DNA of 64,000 nucleotides from Wenzhouxiangella sp. 15190. Its GTDB lineage: Bacteria; Pseudomonadota; Gammaproteobacteria; Xanthomonadales; Wenzhouxiangellaceae. Each line of letters opens with the position of its first letter. Within the stretch, counting starts at the first letter, position 1. This document shows positions 4,662-59,749 of this stretch, piece by piece. Under the pieces are notes generated by a model. It searched no databases and had not been told where the DNA came from. It was given only the letters and a program-made list of their open reading frames with translations. The position numbers and the translations under genes are program-made. The stretch spans positions 1 to 64,000 of the forward strand of contig NZ_QVMV01000039.1 of assembly GCF_003417465.1 (NCBI RefSeq), written 5' to 3'.

Positions 4662-4806
4662 ACCTCAGATGAACGCAGTTGGCCGCAGATGATCTTTGAA
4701 TCGACTTCGCGGGAGTGCCGCCCTTGACGGATCCTCGTTTCAATGACTCCGCTGTCTCGGAAGCCGGATTTTTTCTTTATCTGTGTTTATCTGTGTTCAT
4801 CTGTGG
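4662..4806. repeat. ATCTGTG-type intergenic element inside the tol operon
   Basis: The gap between tolR and tolA opens with CCTCAGATGAACGCAG and closes with a tandem of TTTATCTGTG / TTCATCTGTG units (about 4777-4806). The last unit is the inverse of the opening, so the element has inverted ends around a variable core of roughly 90 bases. It resembles in design the CACGGAA elements elsewhere in this window. It holds no credible gene and separates two genes that are normally close together. Confidence 0.65.
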
Positions 4807-8501: not shown

Positions 8502-8516
8502 CGGGGTAGGGTCGAC

Positions 8517-8594
8517 GGTTTCCGGTTTCCGGTTTCCGGTTTCCGATTTACGGATCACCGACCACGGACCCCGTAACCCGTAACCCGTAACCCG
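8517..8594. repeat. Heptamer tandem repeats (GGTTTCC)4 and (CCCGTAA)3
   Basis: Directly after cpoB, GGTTTCC is repeated four times without error at 8517-8544. After a spacer of about 25 bases, CCCGTAA is repeated three times at 8570-8590 with a partial fourth. The spacer also holds ACGGA-like copies. No gene fits in the gap. The design (heptamers at both borders of a gap) resembles the other intergenic elements of this window. Confidence 0.8.
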
Positions 8595-8643
8595 TTTTCC
8601 GCTACCATGGCGGGTTTAGGGAATCTCAGGGGCCAATCCCGCC

Positions 8644-9504
8644 ATGATCGATACCGTCGTCTTCCCCGTAGCTGGACTCGGCACGCGTTTCCTGCCGGCG
8701 ACCAAGGCCATCCCGAAGGAAATGCTGCCGGTGGTCGACAAGCCGCTGATTCAGTATGCCGTGGAGGAGGCCGTGGCCGCCGGTGCGCGTCGCCTGGTTT
8801 TCGTCACCGGCCGGACCAAGAACGCCATCGCCGATCATTTCGACATGGCCTACGAGCTCGAAACCGAACTCGAGCAGCGCGGCAAGCACGAACTGCTGGC
8901 ACTGGCGCAGGATACCGTTCCTGACGGCGTTGAATGCCTGTATGTCCGTCAGCGTCAGGCGCTGGGCCTGGGCCATGCCGTGCTGTGCGCTCGCTCGCTG
9001 GTCGCCGGCGACGCCTTCGGCCTGATCCTGCCCGACGACCTGGTGGACAATGGTCACGACCCCGTGCTTTCGCAGCTGGCGCGGCACCATGCCGATACTG
9101 GCGCCTCGGTGATCAGCGTCGAGGAAGTACCACGCGAGAAGACAAGCTCCTATGGCGTGGTGGATGTCGAGTCCTTTGCCGGCCGAAGCGGTCGCATTCG
9201 AGGCGTGGTGGAAAAGCCCGAGCCGGAGAACGCGCCTTCGAACCTGGCCATCGTCGGGCGCTATATCCTGAGTTCGCGTATCTTCGAGCTGCTCGAACAC
9301 ACCGCACCCGACCACCGCGGCGAGATCCAGATCACAGACGCCATCGCCACGCTGCTCGACGAGCAGCCGGTCGATGCCTACCAGTTTGAAGGCCGGCACT
9401 ACGATTGCGGCTCCAAGCTGGGCTTTCTGCAGGCCACCGTCGATCTCGGTCGCAAGCACCCCGAGCTCGGTGCCGACTTTTCCGCCTGGCTTGAAAATTC
9501 ATAG
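8644..9504 (+). CDS. galU: UTP-glucose-1-phosphate uridylyltransferase
   Basis: GalU (286 aa) makes UDP-glucose from UTP and glucose-1-phosphate, feeding LPS, capsule and osmoprotectant synthesis. The nucleotidyltransferase signature VFPVAGLGTRFLPATKAIPKEMLPVVDKP stands at the N-terminus and the substrate region VEKPEPENAPSNLAIVGRYI is intact. The length equals the family's. The ATG at 8644 is the first before this signature. An intergenic repeat begins immediately after its TAG. Confidence 0.96.
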   Translation: MIDTVVFPVAGLGTRFLPATKAIPKEMLPVVDKPLIQYAVEEAVAAGARRLVFVTGRTKNAIADHFDMAYELETELEQRGKHELLALAQDTVPDGVECLYVRQRQALGLGHAVLCARSLVAGDAFGLILPDDLVDNGHDPVLSQLARHHADTGASVISVEEVPREKTSSYGVVDVESFAGRSGRIRGVVEKPEPENAPSNLAIVGRYILSSRIFELLEHTAPDHRGEIQITDAIATLLDEQPVDAYQFEGRHYDCGSKLGFLQATVDLGRKHPELGADFSAWLENS

Positions 9505-9643
9505 ACCACGGAAAGCACGGAATACACGGAACCTATACACGTTCCAGGGTTGTGCAAGGAATTCCCCGCCTTCATCTGAACGATTGACGCCGCAAGATAC
9601 AGGGCGGTCGTTCCTTCCGTGTTCTCCCGTGAATTCCGTGGTT
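9505..9643. repeat. CACGGAA-type intergenic element, copy 1 (galU-cysQ)
   Basis: This starts on the base after the galU stop with ACCACGGAAAGCACGGAA and related units, and ends with the inverse pattern (TTCCGTG units, last TTCCGTGGTT). About 80 bases of unrelated core lie between. Copies 2 (41940-42074) and 3 (58822-59013) share the borders but not the core. Confidence 0.8.
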
Positions 9644-9671: not shown

Positions 9672-10469
9672 ATGCAATTGAGTGAAATGCTGCCTCGTGT
9701 GCGCGAGGCCGTGGCCGAGGCCGGGGAGGCCATCATGGCCGTCTACAACAATCCGGCCACTACCGAGGTCGTCGACAAGGACGACAAGAGCCCGCTGACC
9801 GAAGCCGATCTGGCCGCCAATCGCATCCTGGTCGAGCGCCTCGAGGCGCTCACGCCCGATGTGCCGATCCTTTCGGAGGAATCGAAGCAGGCGCCCTGGT
9901 CGGAGCGAAAGCAGTGGAAGGAACTCTGGGTCGTCGATCCGCTCGACGGTACGCGCGAGTTTCTCAAGCGCAACGGCGAATTCACCGTCAACGTCGCGCT
10001 GGTGCGCGAGCACGAGCCCGTACTGGGTGTGGTTTATGCCCCGGCGCTGGATCGCTGGTATTACGCCTCGACCGAGGACGGTGCATGGCGCCAGGATGAC
10101 GCTCGCGAGCCCGTGCGCATCGAAGCCGGCCACAAGCAGTATGACCGGCCCTGGCAGGTGGTGGGCAGCCGCTCGCACAATACCCGCGAGGCCGAGGATT
10201 TCGTGGCGCGCCTGGGCTCGGCCGAGTTCGTCGCCATGGGCAGTTCGCTCAAGCTCTGCCTGGTCGCCGACGGTTCGGCCGATATCTATCCCCGTCTGGG
10301 CCCAACCTGCGAATGGGATACCTGTGCCGCCCAGGCGGTGGTGGTAGCCGCCGGCGGTCAGGTGGTCAACGCCGAAACCGGCGAGCCCTTGACCTACAAT
10401 GCCCGCGAAGAAGTGCTCAACCCCTGGTTCATCGTCTGCCGCGATCCCGATCCGGCCTGGTTCGAGTAG
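9672..10469 (+). CDS. cysQ: 3'(2'),5'-bisphosphate nucleotidase CysQ
   Basis: This 265-aa member of the inositol-monophosphatase superfamily removes the 3'-phosphate of PAP, a by-product of sulfate assimilation. The metal-binding motifs are clear: LTEADLAANRI and the SEES segment, the core DPLDGTREFL near residue 95, and the C-terminal CEWDTCAAQAVV. The GAAGAGAG before the ATG at 9672 serves as ribosome-binding site. It sits between galU and uup on the same strand, but the repeat element upstream suggests a separate start of transcription. Confidence 0.94.
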   Translation: MQLSEMLPRVREAVAEAGEAIMAVYNNPATTEVVDKDDKSPLTEADLAANRILVERLEALTPDVPILSEESKQAPWSERKQWKELWVVDPLDGTREFLKRNGEFTVNVALVREHEPVLGVVYAPALDRWYYASTEDGAWRQDDAREPVRIEAGHKQYDRPWQVVGSRSHNTREAEDFVARLGSAEFVAMGSSLKLCLVADGSADIYPRLGPTCEWDTCAAQAVVVAAGGQVVNAETGEPLTYNAREEVLNPWFIVCRDPDPAWFE

Positions 10470-31939: not shown

Positions 31940-31950
31940 GGGGCTTGAAG

Positions 31951-31978
31951 TGTGAAGTGTTAAGTGTGAAGTGTTAAG
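31951..31978. repeat. Two 14-bp tandem repeats upstream of the alpha/beta hydrolase
   Basis: TGTGAAGTGTTAAG occurs twice in direct tandem (31951-31964 and 31965-31978), with a partial copy on each side. It starts 11 bases upstream of the hydrolase start codon, so it lies in that gene's 5' leader or promoter. It is another short tandem of the kind seen in other gaps here. Confidence 0.75.
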
Positions 31979-32048
31979 TGATAGGTACTACTGGGGTTGG
32001 GTTGGGGTTTATAGTTGCTTGCTTTCATTAGAAAGGACAGTATTTCTT

Positions 32049-39724: not shown

Positions 39725-41902
39725 ATGACGGATTGGACAGAGGGACTTGAAGCGGGTAACGCTCGTTTCACTCAACTTATTTTGCGCTGGATCGATAACT
39801 ACGCGCAGAGAACGGGAAAATCAGTAGGCCATTTGCAGCATTTGCTCCAGGTGCTTGCTGAATCCCCCGGTACAAAATCGGAACAGGCGCTATCTAGCGT
39901 CTGGCACGCGCTCTCCGCCCTTTCCCGCATAAAACCCGAGCGAGCCGTCGTAGAGGCCACTATTCTCCTGCCCCTGGCTCTGGAATCGCAGGATGCGGAG
40001 CCGCAGTTTCCGACTGAATGCTCTAAAGAAGTGGCCGGTCTCCTGGAACAACTCAGGACGCTGACCTTCTTCGGCCGGACCTACCTGCCGGACGACCAGG
40101 CCCGGGCCGAGGGCCTGAGGCAGCTGCTGATGGCGCTGGTGGCCGATGTGCGCGTGGTGTTGATCGCGCTGGCCTGGCAGATCGCGCGACTGCATGCCGC
40201 TCGTGACGCCGATGAGGCCACCCGGCGCGAGGTGGCGCGCGAGACGCAGCTGATCCACGCACCGCTGGCCAATCGCCTGGGTATCTGGCAGTTCAAGTGG
40301 GAGCTCGAGGATCTTTCCTTTCGTTACCTGGAACCCGAGACTTACCAGCGTATCAGCCGGCTGGTGGCCGAGAAGCGTTCCGACCGGCAGGCGTTTATCG
40401 AGCAGTTCATGAATCGTCTGCGCCAGCTATTGGTCGACTCGGACATCGACGGCGATGTCAGCGGCCGGGCCAAGCACATCTACTCGATCTGGCGCAAGAT
40501 GCAGCGCAAGGGGCTGGATTTTCACGAGCTTTTCGACGTACGTGCCGTGCGGGTGCTGGTCGACACGGTGGAGCAGTGTTACACGGTCCTCGGCCTGGTT
40601 CACACCCGTTGGCATCCGGTGCCGGGCGAGTTCGACGATTACATCACCAATCCCAAATCCAATCTCTACCAGTCGCTGCATACGGCGGTGCGTACCGACA
40701 GCGGCCGGGTCGTGGAAGTGCAGATTCGCACGCACGAGATGCATCGTCACGCGGAACTGGGTGTGGCGGCACACTGGCGCTACAAGGAAGGCGGTCCGCG
40801 CGACGACGCGCTTGAGAAGCGAATCGGCGCGATGCGCCAGCTGCTCGAAGCGCAAGAGGAGGGCGATGACGAAGCGCTGCTGGAGAGCTTCAGTAATCTC
40901 ACGACCGAAGACCGCGTCTATGTGCTCACACCCAAAGGCGAGGTGCGTGACCTGGCTGCAGGAGCGACGCCGCTGGACTTCGCCTACCTGATTCACACCG
41001 AGGTCGGGCACCGCTGCCGGGGCGCCCGGGTCAACGGCCGCATCGTGCCGTTGACCTACCAGCTTCGCAACGGCGATCGCGTCGAGATTCTCACCACCCG
41101 GGAACCCAGGCCTTCGCGCGACTGGCTGGTTCCGCGACTGGGCTACATCGGTACGGCGCGGGCCCGGGCCAAGGTGCGGCAATGGTTCCGCCAGGCCAAC
41201 CAGGAAGAAAACCTTGCCGCCGGCCGGCAAGCGATCGAAGCCGAGTTTCGTCGGCTCGATCTCGACCAGGAAGAAATCCGCAAGGTGATGGAGAAGTTCA
41301 ACGCCACGCGCGTCGAGGATCTCTTCGTCAGTGTCGGTGCCGGTGACGTGACGGCCACCCAGGTCGCCCAGGCGGTCGAACGCCTGCATGCGCGCGAGCA
41401 AAAGGAAAGCGAGGGAATTGCGTTACAGCGTCGACCCGTGGAAAGCGATGGCGGCGACGACGTGCGCATCGAAGGCGTGGGCAGCCTGATGCACCATATG
41501 GCTCGTTGCTGCCAGCCCGTTCCGGGCGATCCCATCGCCGGCTACATCACTCGCGGACGGGGCGTGAGCATTCATCGTCGGGACTGCCGACAATTTCTCA
41601 ACCTGCAGGGTAGCCAGCCCGAGCGAGTACTCGACGTACAGTGGGCCAGCGGACCGCGTAGCCGTTATGCCTCAAGGATCGCGATCAACGCCTGGGACCG
41701 GCGCGAACTCATCAAGGACATCGGTACCTTGCTGGCATCCGAGAAGGTCAACGTCACCGGGATGAACGCCCGACATGCCGACAGCAGCGACGAAGTCGAG
41801 ATCGAACTCACGGTTCAGGTAGAAGATTTCGATCAGCTCGCCACGCTACTCAATCGCCTCCAGACCATCCCCAGCGTCACCGACGCCCGTCGGTTACGTT
41901 AA
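39725..41902 (+). CDS. relA: (p)ppGpp synthetase RelA
   Basis: RelA (725 aa) is the ribosome-associated stringent-response enzyme making (p)ppGpp from ATP and GDP/GTP. The synthetase domain shows GRAKHIYSIWRKMQRK, the RelA-type acidic EFDDY at 302-306 (bifunctional SpoT-type enzymes have RFKDY) and EVQIRTHEMHRHAELGVAAHW. The N-terminal hydrolase-like domain lacks the HD and ED residues, so it should be synthesis-only. A TGS domain (YVLTPKGEVRDLAAGATPLDFAYLIH) and a C-terminal ACT domain follow. The ATG at 39725 has no obvious ribosome-binding site. Confidence 0.95.
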   Translation: MTDWTEGLEAGNARFTQLILRWIDNYAQRTGKSVGHLQHLLQVLAESPGTKSEQALSSVWHALSALSRIKPERAVVEATILLPLALESQDAEPQFPTECSKEVAGLLEQLRTLTFFGRTYLPDDQARAEGLRQLLMALVADVRVVLIALAWQIARLHAARDADEATRREVARETQLIHAPLANRLGIWQFKWELEDLSFRYLEPETYQRISRLVAEKRSDRQAFIEQFMNRLRQLLVDSDIDGDVSGRAKHIYSIWRKMQRKGLDFHELFDVRAVRVLVDTVEQCYTVLGLVHTRWHPVPGEFDDYITNPKSNLYQSLHTAVRTDSGRVVEVQIRTHEMHRHAELGVAAHWRYKEGGPRDDALEKRIGAMRQLLEAQEEGDDEALLESFSNLTTEDRVYVLTPKGEVRDLAAGATPLDFAYLIHTEVGHRCRGARVNGRIVPLTYQLRNGDRVEILTTREPRPSRDWLVPRLGYIGTARARAKVRQWFRQANQEENLAAGRQAIEAEFRRLDLDQEEIRKVMEKFNATRVEDLFVSVGAGDVTATQVAQAVERLHAREQKESEGIALQRRPVESDGGDDVRIEGVGSLMHHMARCCQPVPGDPIAGYITRGRGVSIHRRDCRQFLNLQGSQPERVLDVQWASGPRSRYASRIAINAWDRRELIKDIGTLLASEKVNVTGMNARHADSSDEVEIELTVQVEDFDQLATLLNRLQTIPSVTDARRLR

Positions 41903-41939: not shown

Positions 41940-42074
41940 ACCACGGAAGACACGGAAAGCACGGAAATGCCTGATTGGTAGAGAGTGCTTCGAAGGGTGA
42001 AGAATTGCCCGTCGAGGTGAGCTCTTTCGTCAGAAAAGCTTTTCTTTTCCGTGAATTCGGTGTTTTCCGTGGTT
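41940..42074. repeat. CACGGAA-type intergenic element, copy 2 (relA / glycosyltransferase)
   Basis: The left border has ACCACGGAA, GACACGGAA and GCACGGAA units; the right border has TTTTCCGTG, TTTTCCGTGG inverses. About 85 bases of core lie between. Here the element lies between two convergent genes. Confidence 0.8.
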
Positions 42075-42097
42075 CCTGCTTTTTTGCGTCTTTGTGG

Positions 42098-45000
42098 TTA
42101 GTCGTTCTGCGAAAGTGAACTCAGCATCTCGTTGATGGCCCGCCGGGCCGCATCGAAGCTGAAGTGTTCCTCGACGTTGGCCAGGCCGCCGTCGGATAGC
42201 CTCGTCCAAAGCGCTTCGTCGCTGTAGGCGCGCACGATGGCCTCGGCAAAGCTCTCGGACGTGTCGGCAATTAGTACGTCTTTGCCGTCTTCGAGATACA
42301 TGCCTTCAGCCGCGCAGCGGGTGGCCACGACCGGCAAGCCCCAGGCCATCGCCTGGTTGACTTTGCCCTTGACGCCGGCACCGTAGCGTAGTGGGGCGAC
42401 TGACAGTCGACAGCCTTCCAGGTAGGGTGTGAGATCGGCCACGTAGCCGTGGATGACAACGCCGTTACTGCGTCGTTCGCGCAGGGATTCGGGCATGCGG
42501 CTACCGATGATGTGCAAGCGCACATCAGGAATCTCGCTTCTCACCAGCGGCATGATCTCATCGATCAACCACTCGACCGCATCCAGATTGGGCGGATGCT
42601 GGAAACCGCCGACAAACATCAGGTCGCGTCGGTGGGCCCATGCCCGACTGCGCCCATGGATGTGATGAATATTCGACAGAACCTGGATACGCGCCTCGGG
42701 TACTAGCTGATCAAGCAGTTCTTTCTCGGCCGGGCTCACAACCAAAGTGGTATCGCATTGGCGGATCAGCGTCAGCTCCGACTTGCGGGTTCTTTGAGCA
42801 GTTCGTCGGGCCTTATCGTCACCGCAAAGCTGGGCCAAGCGCTCTTCGCGCAGGAAGTGCAGATCCACGGTATCGAACACCACCGAGGCTTGTCTGCAGT
42901 GCTTTCGAATGGCGTCGATCAACGGTTCGAGTACGTAGTGACGGCTGACGATGACCTGGGTGAGCCGGCTTCCGTATTCGGTCAGCCAGGATTCCGCATC
43001 ACTCACCCAGGGGTGGTGCAGTACTTCGATACCCCGCGCCTGTAGGTCTCGCGAGTAGCGTGCGACCCATGCCAGGTTCTGCGGCATGAAACTCACCCTG
43101 AATCCCATGTCGCGCAGGATCGTGAGAATGGCGACCATACGCATCGAGCCGGAGTCCTTGTCCGGTTCGGGAGTGGTGGCGTCGATGATCAGAACATGAC
43201 CGCTTAAGCGTCGGTAGCGAGCCGAGTGAACTCCTTCGGGTCCGGGAGTCGGGTCCGGCTGCTTCTGCAACTGCTGTTTCCAGCGTTGCTGGAATTTCTT
43301 GCGGTTAACGGCCTGAAATCGCTTGGTGCCCGAAGATTCGTCGGTGCCCGAACTGATACCTTCATGATGCACGATGGTACAGGCCGGCTGATAGATCACC
43401 CGCAGGCCGCGTTCGCGTACACGGAAGCACAGGTCGGTATCTTCGTAGTAGGCGGGTGCGTAGTGCGAATCGAAGCCCTCGAGTTGCTCGAACTGGACGC
43501 GCTCGATGGCCAGGCAGGCGCCCGAGACGTAGTCGGTTTCGCTGGCAAAGCTGTACTCGGGCCGATCGGGCCGATCGCCACGGCCGTAGTTCCAGCCCGA
43601 GCCATCCTTGAAAATGATTCCGCCGGCCTCCTGCAGACGGCCGTCCGGATAGACCAGCCGCGCGCCCACAATGCCGGTATCGGGGAAACGACTGAAAGTC
43701 TGGATCAGGGCCTCCAGCCAGCCTTCGGTGACGGTGGTGTCGTTGTTCAGAAAGACCAGATAGCGGCCACGAGCCGCTGCGGCGCCGGCATTGCAGCTGG
43801 CGATAAAGCCGCTGTTGGTGGTGTTGCGGATGACTCGCAGGCCTCGACAGGCTGCGAGGTACTCAGCGGTTTCATCGCTTGAGCAATCGTCAACGATGAT
43901 CAATTCGCTTTCGATATTATGACTGTTGTATGCAGCAATCGAGTTGAGACAGGCTGAGGTGTAGTGCGCCTTGTTGAATACAGGCACCACGATGCTCACT
44001 AGCGGCTCAGAGGTCGTGTCGAGGGTAACCGGTTCGAGGGTACCCTCCGATGGTTCCATGGCTTCGAATGTAACGGGAGCCTCGGGGGAGGTATGTACCC
44101 CTTGCTGCATCAACTCGAGCGTGCCGCGCACACCGTGTAGTCGCAAGTGGAGCCGCAGCCGCCGAAGTAGTAAAGGCCACTGCAAGGGGTTGTAGACGCG
44201 TCGGCGAATGGCGTTGGCGGCGACGCGGTTGGCCACGCGCAGCGGTCGAGTCAGACGCCAGGATCGGCTTGCGAAAATGGTTTGGAGTTCGTGATCGAGG
44301 TGCTCCGCCCGGGCGAGCTGTGCTTCGGTGTCTTTGTGGGCCAGCTCGAGTTCCCTTTCCGTCGCTTCAAGCTGGCTTTGTCGATCGGCAAGGCGCTGCT
44401 GGACTTCGGACAGGCGTTCCTTGTGCTCTAAGATTTCGCCCTCGAGCCGCTGCGCCCACTGCGTGCGATCGGTGGCCAGCCGTTCCTGCTTCCGGGCCCA
44501 GTCGGTTCTTTTCTCGAGGTCGATGCGCAACGCTTCGACCTCATCGCGTAATGCCGCGTGCTGTCGTCGTGTGTCCACCAGGTCGGCGGCCTTGCTCGCG
44601 GAACGCAGTGCGCTGCTCGTACTCGCGCTTGCGGCCGGTGGTTCGGCCGTTCGCAGGCCCACGATGCCATCGAGTGTCGAAAGCGTTTCGCTGATCGACG
44701 CCTCGGCGGGTAGTGCGGCCCGCAATGCCTCGAGCTGTCCGGACCGCTCGCGCAGCGCCCTGACGGCCCTGATGAGCGACTCAGGGTCGGGATCGAAAAG
44801 TATCCCGTCGGTTTCGTGGCGAATGCGTTCGATGAAACTGCCCGTGCGCGTAGCCACCGGTACGAGGCCGAGCGCCCGCGTTTCGGTCAGGGCATAGTTC
44901 CAGGTCTCCGCTACCGTGGACAGGAACAGGGCGGCCTGCGCGCCGATGCGCGCGAGGTGGTCCGGCAACTCGTCATGACGGTAGTCGAGGACGACATCGA

Positions 45001-46528
45001 CCTCGGGTTGGCCGAAAAAGCGCATGCCGTGATGACCGCAGCCCAGCAGCGTGATGCGGGCGTGCTCGCGAAGTCCTTCGATGGCGGCATCGAGCAGCCC
45101 GAGTCCCTTGCCCGGGGACAGTCGGCCGACGACGACCAGGTTGAGCCGGCCGTCGGGCAGGGCGCTTGGCAGGACCTCGGGCGCATCGGATGACCAGCCG
45201 GCGAAGCCGTGGGGGACGACTTGCGCCTCCTGGAGGGGGTCATCGACCAGTGTTCGCCAGCGTTCAAGGACGTGTTCGGCTGGCGCTGCCAGGGCGATCT
45301 CGTGCTTTCGGACGGCTTCCAGCCAATTTTCGGCCAGTGCTTGCCAACGTCCTGCGCGACGCTCGGCGAAAAGGAAATTGTCGCCGGAATCGTTGATGGC
45401 TCGATCGAGTTCGATTCGGCCGTCCTCACCGGCCCAGGCGAGCGGATCCTGGTCGAGTACCGGCCAGGCCGGGTAGTAGTCGTGCAGCATTTCTACCGTC
45501 GGCAGGCCGGTGGCCAGGGCATCCAGGCTGTGGCCGATCAAGGAAGAGACGATGATCCGTGCCACGCCGTAGCGCCGTATCACGGTGTGGAGTATCTCGC
45601 GATACTGCGCGTGTGTGCTGTCCGTGCCGGCGATGGCCGGCGCCAGTGTCCATTCGCGGATGCAGGCCCGGCCGGGTCCGGCCGCATACAGCTTGAGCCA
45701 CTGGCCGTGAATCGTGCCGTCGGTATGCCCGCCGGCCGACAGCACGAGGTGACGGTGGCCGTCGTCGGCGGTAATGAGATCATCGATCCAGCGCGCTACG
45801 CCGCCGCCCCAGTCATGACTGATATGCAGCACCACGGGTTGCCCGTCGAAGCCGAACAGGGGCAGGGGCGCGGTCACACTTTCTCCGGCCACGGCCTCGA
45901 TGGCCGTGGCCAGGTGTCCAAGGGCCGCGCGCAGGTCCGGGGTGTGTGGCCCGCCATCGTCGCGGCCCTGCGGATCGTGGATCCAGAGACCGTCGTAGAT
46001 CCAGCAGTGCTCGCTTTCGGCTTGTTGAATTGCTTCTTCGGTCCGCCCGGGCGGTACGATCGCCAGGCGTTCGGGCCGGTACCGAACCGGTGTCCAGCGC
46101 AGTTCGGCCGCCGCCTGGACGATCGAATCGACCGTGCTGCCGTCTTCCGGGTCCATCAGGCCGGCCGAAGGGTCGAGGCCGCGCTGGTGGTTGCCCGGCA
46201 ATGTCAGCAGCGGTGGACAGTCGGGGGAAGCCAGTAGGTGGCCCAGGCGGGCGGCGAATCGGCGCGGCAGGGCGAAGCCCGGGGCCAGCAGCACGACGCC
46301 GTTTTGAGTACGCTTCGGGTCAATCTCGCCCAGCCAGGTCCACCACGAACCGCGGCTGCCGGGCAGAACGTCCAGGCCTTCACCAACCGGTCCGCCCTCG
46401 CTGGAAATGATGTCGCCGGGGAGTTCTCGCCGCACGGCGTCGAGCCAACCGCGATCGATGGTCACCCCGGGCTCGGCTAGAACGACGACCAGCGGCGAGA
46501 TTCTGGTTGTGCTGTCGGAATCAGTCAC
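42098..46528 (-). CDS. Triple-module glycosyltransferase (GT4-coiled coil-GT2-GT4)
   Basis: This 1476-aa protein has an N-terminal glycosyltransferase with a GT-B fold (about 240-620; GRLSPGKGLGLLDAAIEGL, SGFIE-like region and ETRALGLVPVATRTGS). A coiled coil (about 650-760) follows, then a GT2 family GT-A domain (about 845-1080; SIVVPVFNKAHYTSACLNSI, DDCSSDETAEYL, FLNNDTTVTEGWLEAL). A second GT-B module closes the protein (about 1110-1470; DKDSGSMRMVAIL, VGGFQHPPNLDAVEWLIDEI, PLRYGAGVKGKVNQAMAWGLPVVAT). Such fused enzymes build O-antigen or cell-surface polysaccharide. No other polysaccharide gene adjoins it. Substrates cannot be told. Confidence 0.88.
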   Translation of the reverse strand: MTDSDSTTRISPLVVVLAEPGVTIDRGWLDAVRRELPGDIISSEGGPVGEGLDVLPGSRGSWWTWLGEIDPKRTQNGVVLLAPGFALPRRFAARLGHLLASPDCPPLLTLPGNHQRGLDPSAGLMDPEDGSTVDSIVQAAAELRWTPVRYRPERLAIVPPGRTEEAIQQAESEHCWIYDGLWIHDPQGRDDGGPHTPDLRAALGHLATAIEAVAGESVTAPLPLFGFDGQPVVLHISHDWGGGVARWIDDLITADDGHRHLVLSAGGHTDGTIHGQWLKLYAAGPGRACIREWTLAPAIAGTDSTHAQYREILHTVIRRYGVARIIVSSLIGHSLDALATGLPTVEMLHDYYPAWPVLDQDPLAWAGEDGRIELDRAINDSGDNFLFAERRAGRWQALAENWLEAVRKHEIALAAPAEHVLERWRTLVDDPLQEAQVVPHGFAGWSSDAPEVLPSALPDGRLNLVVVGRLSPGKGLGLLDAAIEGLREHARITLLGCGHHGMRFFGQPEVDVVLDYRHDELPDHLARIGAQAALFLSTVAETWNYALTETRALGLVPVATRTGSFIERIRHETDGILFDPDPESLIRAVRALRERSGQLEALRAALPAEASISETLSTLDGIVGLRTAEPPAASASTSSALRSASKAADLVDTRRQHAALRDEVEALRIDLEKRTDWARKQERLATDRTQWAQRLEGEILEHKERLSEVQQRLADRQSQLEATERELELAHKDTEAQLARAEHLDHELQTIFASRSWRLTRPLRVANRVAANAIRRRVYNPLQWPLLLRRLRLHLRLHGVRGTLELMQQGVHTSPEAPVTFEAMEPSEGTLEPVTLDTTSEPLVSIVVPVFNKAHYTSACLNSIAAYNSHNIESELIIVDDCSSDETAEYLAACRGLRVIRNTTNSGFIASCNAGAAAARGRYLVFLNNDTTVTEGWLEALIQTFSRFPDTGIVGARLVYPDGRLQEAGGIIFKDGSGWNYGRGDRPDRPEYSFASETDYVSGACLAIERVQFEQLEGFDSHYAPAYYEDTDLCFRVRERGLRVIYQPACTIVHHEGISSGTDESSGTKRFQAVNRKKFQQRWKQQLQKQPDPTPGPEGVHSARYRRLSGHVLIIDATTPEPDKDSGSMRMVAILTILRDMGFRVSFMPQNLAWVARYSRDLQARGIEVLHHPWVSDAESWLTEYGSRLTQVIVSRHYVLEPLIDAIRKHCRQASVVFDTVDLHFLREERLAQLCGDDKARRTAQRTRKSELTLIRQCDTTLVVSPAEKELLDQLVPEARIQVLSNIHHIHGRSRAWAHRRDLMFVGGFQHPPNLDAVEWLIDEIMPLVRSEIPDVRLHIIGSRMPESLRERRSNGVVIHGYVADLTPYLEGCRLSVAPLRYGAGVKGKVNQAMAWGLPVVATRCAAEGMYLEDGKDVLIADTSESFAEAIVRAYSDEALWTRLSDGGLANVEEHFSFDAARRAINEMLSSLSQND

Positions 46529-57335: not shown

Positions 57336-58751
57336 TCAGCCCGTTTGCAGCCGGGCGGCCCGGCGCCGCTGGGCCGAGCCGGGGATACCGAGCTGCTCGC
57401 GGTACTTGGCCACGGTTCGCCGTGCCAGCTTGATACCGCCCTCGGCCAGTCTCTCGGCGAGTGCCTGGTCGGACAGCGGTTCGCCCGGGGGCTCCTCCGT
57501 GATCAGTCGGCGCACCCGGGCCTTGACCGCCGTGGCGGCGATTTGCTGACCGTCCTGCGTATCGATTCCGACCGAGAAGAAGAACTTGAGTTCGAAAACG
57601 CCGCGCGGCGTGTGTGCGTATTTTTCGGTGGTTGCGCGCGAGACGGTCGATTCGTGCACGCCGATGGACTCGGCGACTTCGCGCTGCAGGAGTGGCTTGA
57701 GCCCGGATTCGCCCATGCTGAAAAATTCGTGCTGGCGCTCCACGATGGCCCGCGTGACCGCCTGCAGGGTCTGGTTGCGCATCTCCAGGCCGCTGATCAG
57801 CCAGCGCGCCTCCTGCAACCGGTTTCTGAGGTATTTCTTGTCCTCGCCGCGGGCCTGTTTGGCCAGTTTCATGTACATGCCGTTGAGCTGCAGGCCGGGA
57901 TCGTTGTCCGGGTTGAGGGTCACACGCCAGCCCTCCTCGGACGGATGGATGTAGACGTCGGGCACGATGTAGTTCTCGTCGTCCCGGCCGAATCGCGAGC
58001 ACGGATGCGGGTTGCAGCGGCGGATGACCGCCAGGGCGGCCTGAATTTCGGACTCACCCATGCCGGTAGCGCGCACCATCGCCCGAATGTCCTGCTTGCC
58101 CAGTTCCTCCAGGTGTCGCTCGACCAGGTGGCAGGCCAGGCCCAGTGCGGGGGTGCTCGACGGCATGGCCTTGAGCTGAACCAGCAGGCTCTCGCCCACG
58201 CTGCGGCTGGCCACGCCGATCGGCTCGAAGTGCTGGACGCGTTCTAAAACCGCGGCGACTTCCTCGGTGCTGACCAGGTACTCCGGTGCCAGCGAGGCAC
58301 GCAGCGTGGAAAGGTCGTCCTGCAGGTAGCCTTCTTCGTCGAGCGCGTAGATGATGGCGCGCGCGATGGCCTCGTCGGTCTCGCTGAACCCGGCCAGGTT
58401 GACCTGCCAGAGCAGGTGCTGCTGCAGCGACTCGTCGGCGCGGTCGCTGATGAATTCGTCGTAATTGGGAGCGGGGCCGGAAGTGACCGAGTAGCCTTCC
58501 GGCAGGTCGTCGAATCCGTAGTCGTCGCCGTAGTCGACTTCGAGGTCGCCGTCGAATTCTTCGGTTTGCTCGTCGCTGTCGCCCGGCGCTTCCTCGCTGC
58601 GCTCGAGCATGGGGTTGGTGTCGAGTGCTTCACGGATGGTCTGGCGCAGCTCGATACGGTTGAGCTGTAGCAGGGCAATGGCCTGGCGCAGCTGCGGCGC
58701 CAGCTTGAGCTTCTGGCCCAGCTTGAGCTGGAGACTAGCACCCTGTTTCAT
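57336..58751 (-). CDS. rpoN: RNA polymerase sigma-54 factor
   Basis: Sigma-54 (471 aa) directs activator-dependent transcription of nitrogen and other genes. Region I begins MKQGASLQLKLGQKLKLAPQLRQAI with the Gln/Leu-rich activator-interacting part. An acidic linker (about 50-85) follows, then core-binding and helix-turn-helix regions (VHESTVSRATTEKYAHTPRG). The RpoN box ARRTVAKYRE is at 443-452. A CACGGAA element lies directly upstream, between it and lptB. Confidence 0.96.
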   Translation of the reverse strand: MKQGASLQLKLGQKLKLAPQLRQAIALLQLNRIELRQTIREALDTNPMLERSEEAPGDSDEQTEEFDGDLEVDYGDDYGFDDLPEGYSVTSGPAPNYDEFISDRADESLQQHLLWQVNLAGFSETDEAIARAIIYALDEEGYLQDDLSTLRASLAPEYLVSTEEVAAVLERVQHFEPIGVASRSVGESLLVQLKAMPSSTPALGLACHLVERHLEELGKQDIRAMVRATGMGESEIQAALAVIRRCNPHPCSRFGRDDENYIVPDVYIHPSEEGWRVTLNPDNDPGLQLNGMYMKLAKQARGEDKKYLRNRLQEARWLISGLEMRNQTLQAVTRAIVERQHEFFSMGESGLKPLLQREVAESIGVHESTVSRATTEKYAHTPRGVFELKFFFSVGIDTQDGQQIAATAVKARVRRLITEEPPGEPLSDQALAERLAEGGIKLARRTVAKYREQLGIPGSAQRRRAARLQTG

Positions 58752-58821: not shown

Positions 58822-59013
58822 AACCACGGAAAGCACGGAAAAGCACGGAAAGCGAGCGGGCATCAAATGCCGCAGCTCGGGATCAGCGGATCCGCGATGC
58901 TCGAGAATGGGGCGTTCAGGTGGTGAAGGATGAGCAAGAGTCCGTCGTTGCATTGCACCAGGGGCGTATACACTCGTTCCGTTCTTCCGTGAACTTCCGT
59001 GTCTTCCGTGGTT
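58822..59013. repeat. CACGGAA-type intergenic element, copy 3 (rpoN / lptB)
   Basis: The left border reads ACCACGGAAAGCACGGAA with further AGCACGGAAA units. The right border reads TTCTTCCGTG, ACTTCCGTG, TCTTCCGTGG, the inverse of the left. Core length is about 125 bases, the longest of the three copies. It lies upstream of the rpoN start and downstream of the lptB stop. Confidence 0.82.
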
Positions 59014-59029: not shown

Positions 59030-59749
59030 TCAGAGCCGGAATTCGCGCCCGAGGTAGACGTTGCGCACGTTCTCGTCGGCCATGACGTCGGCCGGCACGC
59101 CGTGGGTCAGCAGACGGCCCTCGCTGATGATGTAGGCGCGGTCACAGATGCCGAGGGTCTCGCGCACGTTGTGATCGGTGATCAGGATGCCGATATCGCG
59201 TTCGGTCAGATGCCGGACGATGTTCTGGATTTCGCCGACGGAAATGGGGTCCACGCCGGCAAAGGGTTCGTCGAGCAGCATGTAGGACGGGTTGGCGGCC
59301 AGTGCGCGGGCGATTTCCACGCGCCGGCGCTCGCCCCCGGACAGGCTGATGCCGGACTGGTCGGCCAGATGACTGACCGAGAACTCCTCCATCAGGCGCT
59401 CGAGTTCGTCTCGGCGAGCGGTTCGGTCGAGGTCGCGCCTGAGTTCCAGCACGGCCATGATGTTGTCGGCCACCGACAGGCGTCGGAAGATCGAGGCCTC
59501 CTGCGGCAGATAGCCCAGACCGTAGCGGGAGCGCTGGTTCATGCTCGAGCGTGTGATGTCGCGCCCATTCAGCTCGATGCGGCCGCCATCGGCGGCGACC
59601 AGGCCCACAACCATGTAGAAGCAGGTGGTCTTGCCGGCACCGTTGGGTCCGAGCAGCCCGACGATCTCGCCGGTGTCGACCTGCATCGACATGCCGTGCA
59701 CCACGGCGCGTCCCTTGTAGCGTTTGGCGAGCTGCTCGGCAATCAGCAC
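59030..59749 (-). CDS. lptB: LPS export ABC ATPase LptB
   Basis: This 239-aa ATPase powers LptFG to lift LPS from the inner membrane. It has GPNGAGKT at 34-41, [15 protein letters not shown] and [14 protein letters not shown], and the family's [18 protein letters not shown]. It follows lptA by 3 bp. rpoN lies downstream after the repeat element, the usual gene order. Confidence 0.96.

Follow-up and report, generated by a model that had tools for sequence, protein, structure and literature searches.

The three intergenic elements bounded by inverted CACGGAA arrays in a 64,000-nucleotide stretch of the Wenzhouxiangella sp. 15190 genome (hereafter the window) are probably gene-less members of a cassette superfamily built around GxxExxY genes and spread by a protein that recognizes its own units. 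Cassettes of this class are widespread and apparently undescribed.

CACGGAA arrays in the window and its genome

All three copies described by the initial annotation are present (Table 1), and its account of their surroundings was accurate. Copy 1 begins on the base directly after the TAG stop codon of a galU-like open reading frame (ORF; 8644 to 9504) and is followed by a cysQ-like ORF (9672 to 10469). Copy 2 is flanked by a RelA/SpoT-like ORF (39725 to 41902, plus strand) and a convergent ORF (42098 to 46528, minus strand), and copy 3 splits lptB-like (59030 to 59749) from rpoN-like (57336 to 58751) genes, both on the minus strand. The names of these neighbors were read off the translations, without a family-library search. 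The octamer CCACGGAA has six matches in the window, all of which are the outer ends of the three copies; as six single octamers were reached in 2 of 100 shuffles, the single octamer is weak evidence. An Rfam scan of the window gave no match at gathering scores.

Table 1. Positions of the CACGGAA elements, their arms, and a probable decayed relative in the window
Feature	Position	Strand	Description
CACGGAA element copy 1	9505..9643	.	galU-like/cysQ-like gap
Left arm, copy 1	9507..9531	+	CACGGAA x3: 9507-9513, 9516-9522, 9525-9531
Right arm, copy 1	9615..9640	-	TTCCGTG 9615-9621, degenerate TCCCGTG 9625-9631, TTCCGTG 9634-9640
CACGGAA element copy 2	41940..42074	.	Between convergent genes
Left arm, copy 2	41942..41966	+	CACGGAA x3
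Right arm, copy 2	42047..42071	-	TTCCGTG, TTCGGTG, TTCCGTG
CACGGAA element copy 3	58822..59013	.	Between lptB-like and rpoN-like genes
Left arm, copy 3	58825..58850	+	CACGGAA x3
Right arm, copy 3	58985..59010	-	TTCCGTG x3
Probable decayed sister-flavor element	4662..4806	.	CACAGATGAA-type right arm 4776-4805, degenerate left arm from ~4662; by eye

The tandem form is sounder evidence: the window's own genome (3.13 Mb, 55 contigs, 99.8% complete) contains CCACGGAA-N(0-6)-CACGGAA 29 times in the forward and 32 times in the reverse orientation, compared with none in either orientation for a control pattern read backwards. These amount to approximately 35 paired elements (34 strict pairs plus copy 1 of the window) of the form (GGAAC)CACGGAA-NN-CACGGAA-NN(N)-CACGGAA, core, and inverse ending in GTTCC. 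In the stretches around the matches, 34 of 39 left arrays had a right-hand partner no more than 260 nt away by a strict rule, and no right array was unpaired; copy 1, whose middle right unit is degenerate, is among the five left arrays that fail. Core lengths range from 11 to 147 nt, and a BLAST comparison of cores against cores found no match among the genome's elements at an E value of ≤0.01. The initial description of constant inverted borders made of tandem units and enclosing unlike cores thus extends to the whole genome, and neither outcome that the initial annotation named as refuting it was observed, as the cores lack homology and almost every border has its partner. A search of the 35 elements for a GxxExxY remnant found none (best E value, 3.1), so they are gene-less, and their superfamily membership is by borders only. 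The elements sit between genes, often convergent ones. Seven of the 35 were scored as lying inside an ORF, a rough figure, at least partly because spurious ORFs were counted; copy 1 is among these seven, yet it lies between two genes. In the probable decayed sister-flavor element of Table 1, the right arm consists of three TTTATCTGTG units and the degenerate left arm is CGCAGATGAA-like.

Inverted arrays around GxxExxY genes

CACGGAA is one flavor of a superfamily of arrays with the unit CRCNRA[AGT] and a period of 9 to 10 nt, a pattern to which the window copies conform. Among the matches listed, CCACGGAA-NN-CACGGAA-NN-CACGGAA is spread over many bacterial phyla and also turns up in archaeal genomes. 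At least 120 stretches of IMG/VR viral contigs also bear CACGGAA tandem arrays. Among 116 listed loci with CACGGAA triple arrays on cellular contigs, the sole credible independent recurrent neighbor family is GxxExxY; the other recurrent clusters were judged by eye to be reading frames that overlap on the same stretches, or genes common to related MAGs. At all eight listed loci having GxxExxY, the gene lies within 18 nt of the array. GxxExxY was found in 19 of 41 genomes of relatives, and in 38 of 50 genomes holding CACGGAA arrays versus 55 of 299 genomes in a phylum sample, an unmatched background from one phylum. The other 12 CACGGAA-array genomes, including three Methanosarcinaceae, show no GxxExxY.

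Taking the genes with usable flanks as the starting point, inverted tandem arms surround GxxExxY in 22 of 23 cases from relatives (23 of 29 matches were used, with fragments and contig ends excluded), 48 of 69 from the phylum sample, and 26 of 30 from CACGGAA-array genomes, compared with 2 of 300 random positions treated alike. The unit varies by element (for example, CGCAAAG, CGCAGAG, CACGAAG, CGCAGAT, CACCGAA, or CACGGAA) but is common to both arms. CACGGAA arms border GxxExxY genes in Desulfobacterota, Planctomycetota, Verrucomicrobia, and Pseudomonadota. Neither the window's own, nearly complete genome nor any of 24 congeners (many incomplete) yielded a CACGGAA-type GxxExxY gene, although CACGGAA arrays are present in 8 of the 25.

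The GxxExxY protein (TIGR04256/PF13366) matches Pfam PF13366 PDDEXK_3 with an E value of 1.5e-40. The best Foldseek matches to its structure model (pLDDT of 87) are largely PD-(D/E)XK nucleases, with weak E values of approximately 1e-3 and above, and include SSO0001 (a Cas4-family protein), lambda exonuclease, and Holliday junction resolvase. The predicted catalytic residues are present at 84/84 (D), 79/83 (E), and 83/83 (K). Judged from the model and these residues, GxxExxY is a small protein of predicted PD-(D/E)XK nuclease fold and a putative nuclease. A PDB sequence search with GxxExxY gave no match at an E value of ≤1. The name appears in a portion of PMC8934634; in open-license PMC literature, we found no function for GxxExxY and no account of these elements or of repeats flanking the gene, which leaves absence from print unproven.

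Unit sequence and protein lineage co-vary. Across 87 elements, protein identity was related to unit difference with a Mantel r of -0.51 (0 of 1,000 permutations as extreme), and the correlation was still -0.46 for pairs below 60% identity. When each protein was compared with its nearest neighbor in a different genome, the two had an identical unit in 51 of 87 cases, against a permutation mean of 7.2 and a maximum of 16. The 36 elements whose unit ends in A or T fall into a single clade (support, 100/99), and the units of the other 51 end in G. Within this large A/T-ending clade, a well-supported subclade mixes Desulfobacterota, Planctomycetota, Verrucomicrobia, and Pseudomonadota with the units CACGGAA, CACGAAA, CACAGAA, and one CGCGAAT, and two further CACGGAA cases lie elsewhere. 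The test covered the 87 of 122 genes with usable flanks; those dropped had no detected arm or fewer than three recognizable units, and one was a duplicate. The pattern used for unit assignment itself fixes part of the motif, and CACGGAA units set by hand at eight loci in an earlier test (n = 84) are excluded from the test with 87. Common descent of arms and gene would account for part of the co-variation, with constraint on the units needed too. Arms and gene may co-vary through joint descent only, and co-variation alone is no proof of recognition.

The number of arrays also follows the gene for one flavor. Across 41 genomes, the 8 with an intact CGCNAAG-type GxxExxY gene hold 14 to 137 CGCRAAG arrays (median, 25.5), and the 33 others hold 0 to 25 (median, 2), the highest count being that of G015, whose gene is broken. 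The P value for this difference is 1.4e-5, or 2.6e-4 within the genus, both made optimistic by the kinship of the genomes. Repeat abundance thus tracks the gene for CGCRAAG and GxxExxY but does not for CACGGAA in Wenzhouxiangella.

Constraint on the units at orthologous sites

Six element sites are common to the window's own genome and the sister species G003, in aligned stretches that are approximately 76 to 89% identical. Element lengths at these sites are 130/133, 186/181, 141/129, 106/63, 65/63, and 77/75 nt, an agreement reached by only 8 of 720 pairings. Of 168 outer-unit positions, 16 differ; three arms register-shifted by a 3-nt spacer account for 14 of these, and the remaining nine arms differ at only 2 of 126 unit positions. 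Spacers differ at 15 of 24 positions, and orthologous cores are no closer than shuffles in five of six pairs (P = 0.024 for the sixth, whose core is 11 nt long). Since the 40-nt flanks of the shared sites are themselves only 57 to 82% identical by global alignment, where shuffled cores of 76 to 132 nt score approximately 54 to 59%, neutral drift is enough to explain unrelated cores, and no border-writing process is needed. These patterns fit units under selection around a drifting core, and the similar lengths argue for old, inherited copies rather than current movement.

The initial annotation had taken constant borders with unrelated cores to suggest a mechanism that makes or spreads the borders. 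The making half is not supported by the comparison of orthologous gaps, in which lengths and units are kept and spacers and cores are close to shuffled. The spreading half is plausible for the wider superfamily, in which unit and GxxExxY protein co-vary; no insertion was caught.

Of 31 full-arm elements, 2 have the same outer spacer on the left as on the right (random mean, 4.9), and since this is no more than chance, one arm was not copied from the other. The same spacers bear on the view that the elements are host-owned hairpins, either bidirectional terminators or mRNA 3'-end structures kept at gene ends, which share only their style with GxxExxY elements. Under that view, the intergenic and often convergent setting is expected, as are the TTTT found 5 to 20 nt past the right arm in 23 of 35 elements and the AAAA found before the left arm in 20 of 35, and units would be constrained even in genomes without a cognate gene, as they are. 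A terminator, however, needs pairing rather than a fixed sequence, and the spacers are unpaired across the arms; the coding strand of gene-bearing elements has no excess of G-U-compatible differences (23 compatible, 21 not); and hairpins predict neither unit-protein co-variation nor sharing across phyla. We therefore regard a purely host-owned origin as unlikely, if still worth weighing.

Candidate routes of spread and likeness to known systems

A cassette of this superfamily has approximately three 7-nt units per end, spaced at 9 to 10 nt and inverted, with a core whose sequence would be irrelevant and which, in other genomes, holds one gene, GxxExxY. In the reading that we favor, GxxExxY proteins would bind units of their own flavor, hold the two ends together, and cause any DNA between such borders to be copied or inserted, whether or not it contains a gene. 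The Wenzhouxiangella copies would then be relics of a CACGGAA-type protein that is no longer resident, with units still under selection in the genus. We infer this nuclease-driven system from association. A bolder claim, that GxxExxY drives an undescribed mobile element, in which a stand-alone nuclease of 120 residues with the PD-(D/E)XK fold reads the arrays of 7-nt units and spreads any DNA bordered by two inverted ones without a known transposase or integrase, so that much of what bacteria and some archaea have in the way of intergenic tandem-repeat cassettes would be one transposition system of evolving sequence specificity, is one we hold tentatively and would sooner expect to fail than to stand.

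GxxExxY is a common small protein whose lineages track the bordering units, with the same flavor and lineage recurring across phyla, and this link gives a concrete and cheap handle on its function and specificity. Such cassettes would account for a large class of intergenic repeats. If GxxExxY moves them, they represent a route of transposition without a recognized transposase; if it does not, the selection on units in gene-free genomes still requires a reader.

GxxExxY might instead be a passenger or defense-like gene in cassettes moved by a third party that reads the units. Genes for PF05635 four-helix-bundle proteins (the 23S intervening sequence [IVS] type) lie between inverted tandem arms in 24 of 30 cases, mostly heptamers with element-specific units; by their sequences, these cassettes appear to have the same layout, so GxxExxY does not have it to itself. 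We nevertheless consider a passenger role quite unlikely, as unit sequence follows GxxExxY lineage and CGCRAAG array counts follow the presence of the CGCNAAG-type gene. In the window, facing heptamer arrays of CGGTTTC (five units) and CCCGTAA (four units) at 8510 to 8600, just ahead of the galU-like gene, look like the type around PF05635 genes.

Congener gaps orthologous to those of the window hold different flavors. The gap of copy 1 contains CACGGAA in the window's own genome, CGCAAAG in G003, CACCGAA in G010, and no element in G009 and G007. In the gap of copy 2, CACGGAA lies within a CGCAAAG element in G003, CGCGAAG occurs alone in G024, and G016, G009, and G339 have none; copy 2 itself is apparently nested within a decayed CGCAAAG-type element whose right remnant is at approximately 42080 to 42100. 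The gap of copy 3 is occupied by CACGGAA in the window's own genome and G003, by a CGCAGAT type in G014 and G005 (right arm only), and by a heptamer type in G008, whereas G012 and G002 lack an element there. The genus also has a site that was filled more than once, since the GxxExxY genes borne by its CACCGAA and CGCAAAG elements belong to different clades. The compared congener gaps yielded neither an exact empty site nor a target duplication. Recent amplification in G022 was considered as proof of mobility and rejected, as the close copies lie within a larger repeat; several CACGGAA elements of this genome (L559 to L576) are embedded in a dispersed repeat longer than themselves, whose flanks are conserved. 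At L563 (contig C97 of G022), positions 500 to 770 hold stacked right arms with alternating TTCGGTG and TTCCGTG flavors in a tandemly repeated segment.

Concentric nesting of flavors and unrelated cores are what one would expect if borders were written de novo around arbitrary DNA by reverse transcriptase or fold-back copying, a view close to that of the initial annotation. Neither the window's own genome nor G003 has an RVT_1 match, however, left and right spacers differ, so the arms are not copies of each other, and orthologous elements hold similar lengths while the core drifts, which makes de novo writing very improbable.

Miniature inverted-repeat transposable elements (MITEs) are short and gene-less with terminal inverted repeats, as are the CACGGAA elements, but we found no transposase-encoding parent with CACGGAA-type ends.

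In REP-RAYT systems, as treated in parts of PMC2817692 and PMC3116915, a gene lies between inverted short repeats, many gene-less pairs exist, repeat and protein co-evolve, and copy number follows the gene. CACGGAA elements resemble REPINs (and the related BIMEs) in their inverted pairs of conserved repeats, variable middle, and many copies, and the dose of CGCRAAG arrays with GxxExxY resembles the REP-RAYT relation. The GxxExxY protein is unrelated, however, with a predicted PD-(D/E)XK fold versus the Y1/HUH transposase of RAYT; each end here is an array of tandem 7-nt units where a REP end is one palindrome; and these cassettes occur across several bacterial phyla and archaeal genomes, with the cognate gene of CACGGAA missing in Wenzhouxiangella. 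That the CACGGAA elements are themselves REPs or REPINs mobilized by a Y1 (RAYT) transposase is hardly credible despite the shared layout, including a repeat-flanked cognate gene (same sources), as no Y1_Tnp was found in the CACGGAA-array genomes G003 (99% complete) and G010 (75% complete) and the three Y1_Tnp loci of the window's own genome are without CACGGAA or TTCCGTG.

The 23S rRNA IVS with an S23/four-helix-bundle ORF, for example in Coxiella burnetii, likewise encloses a small ORF between inverted terminal repeats, and tandem GACAGAT heptamers adjoin the ORF (from a section of PMC4990558). It differs in lying within 23S rRNA, from which it is excised by RNase III, whereas the window copies lie between protein genes and the related gene is GxxExxY. 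Apparently intergenic PF05635 cassettes with heptamer arms do, however, occur among the 30 cases above. The TAACTGA repeats of Beggiatoaceae are also intergenic tandem heptamers of scattered phylogenetic distribution, but almost all are direct only (169 direct sets versus one inverted) and mostly upstream of start codons, according to part of PMC4679880. The window itself holds a one-sided TGAAGTG heptamer array at 31946 to 31980.
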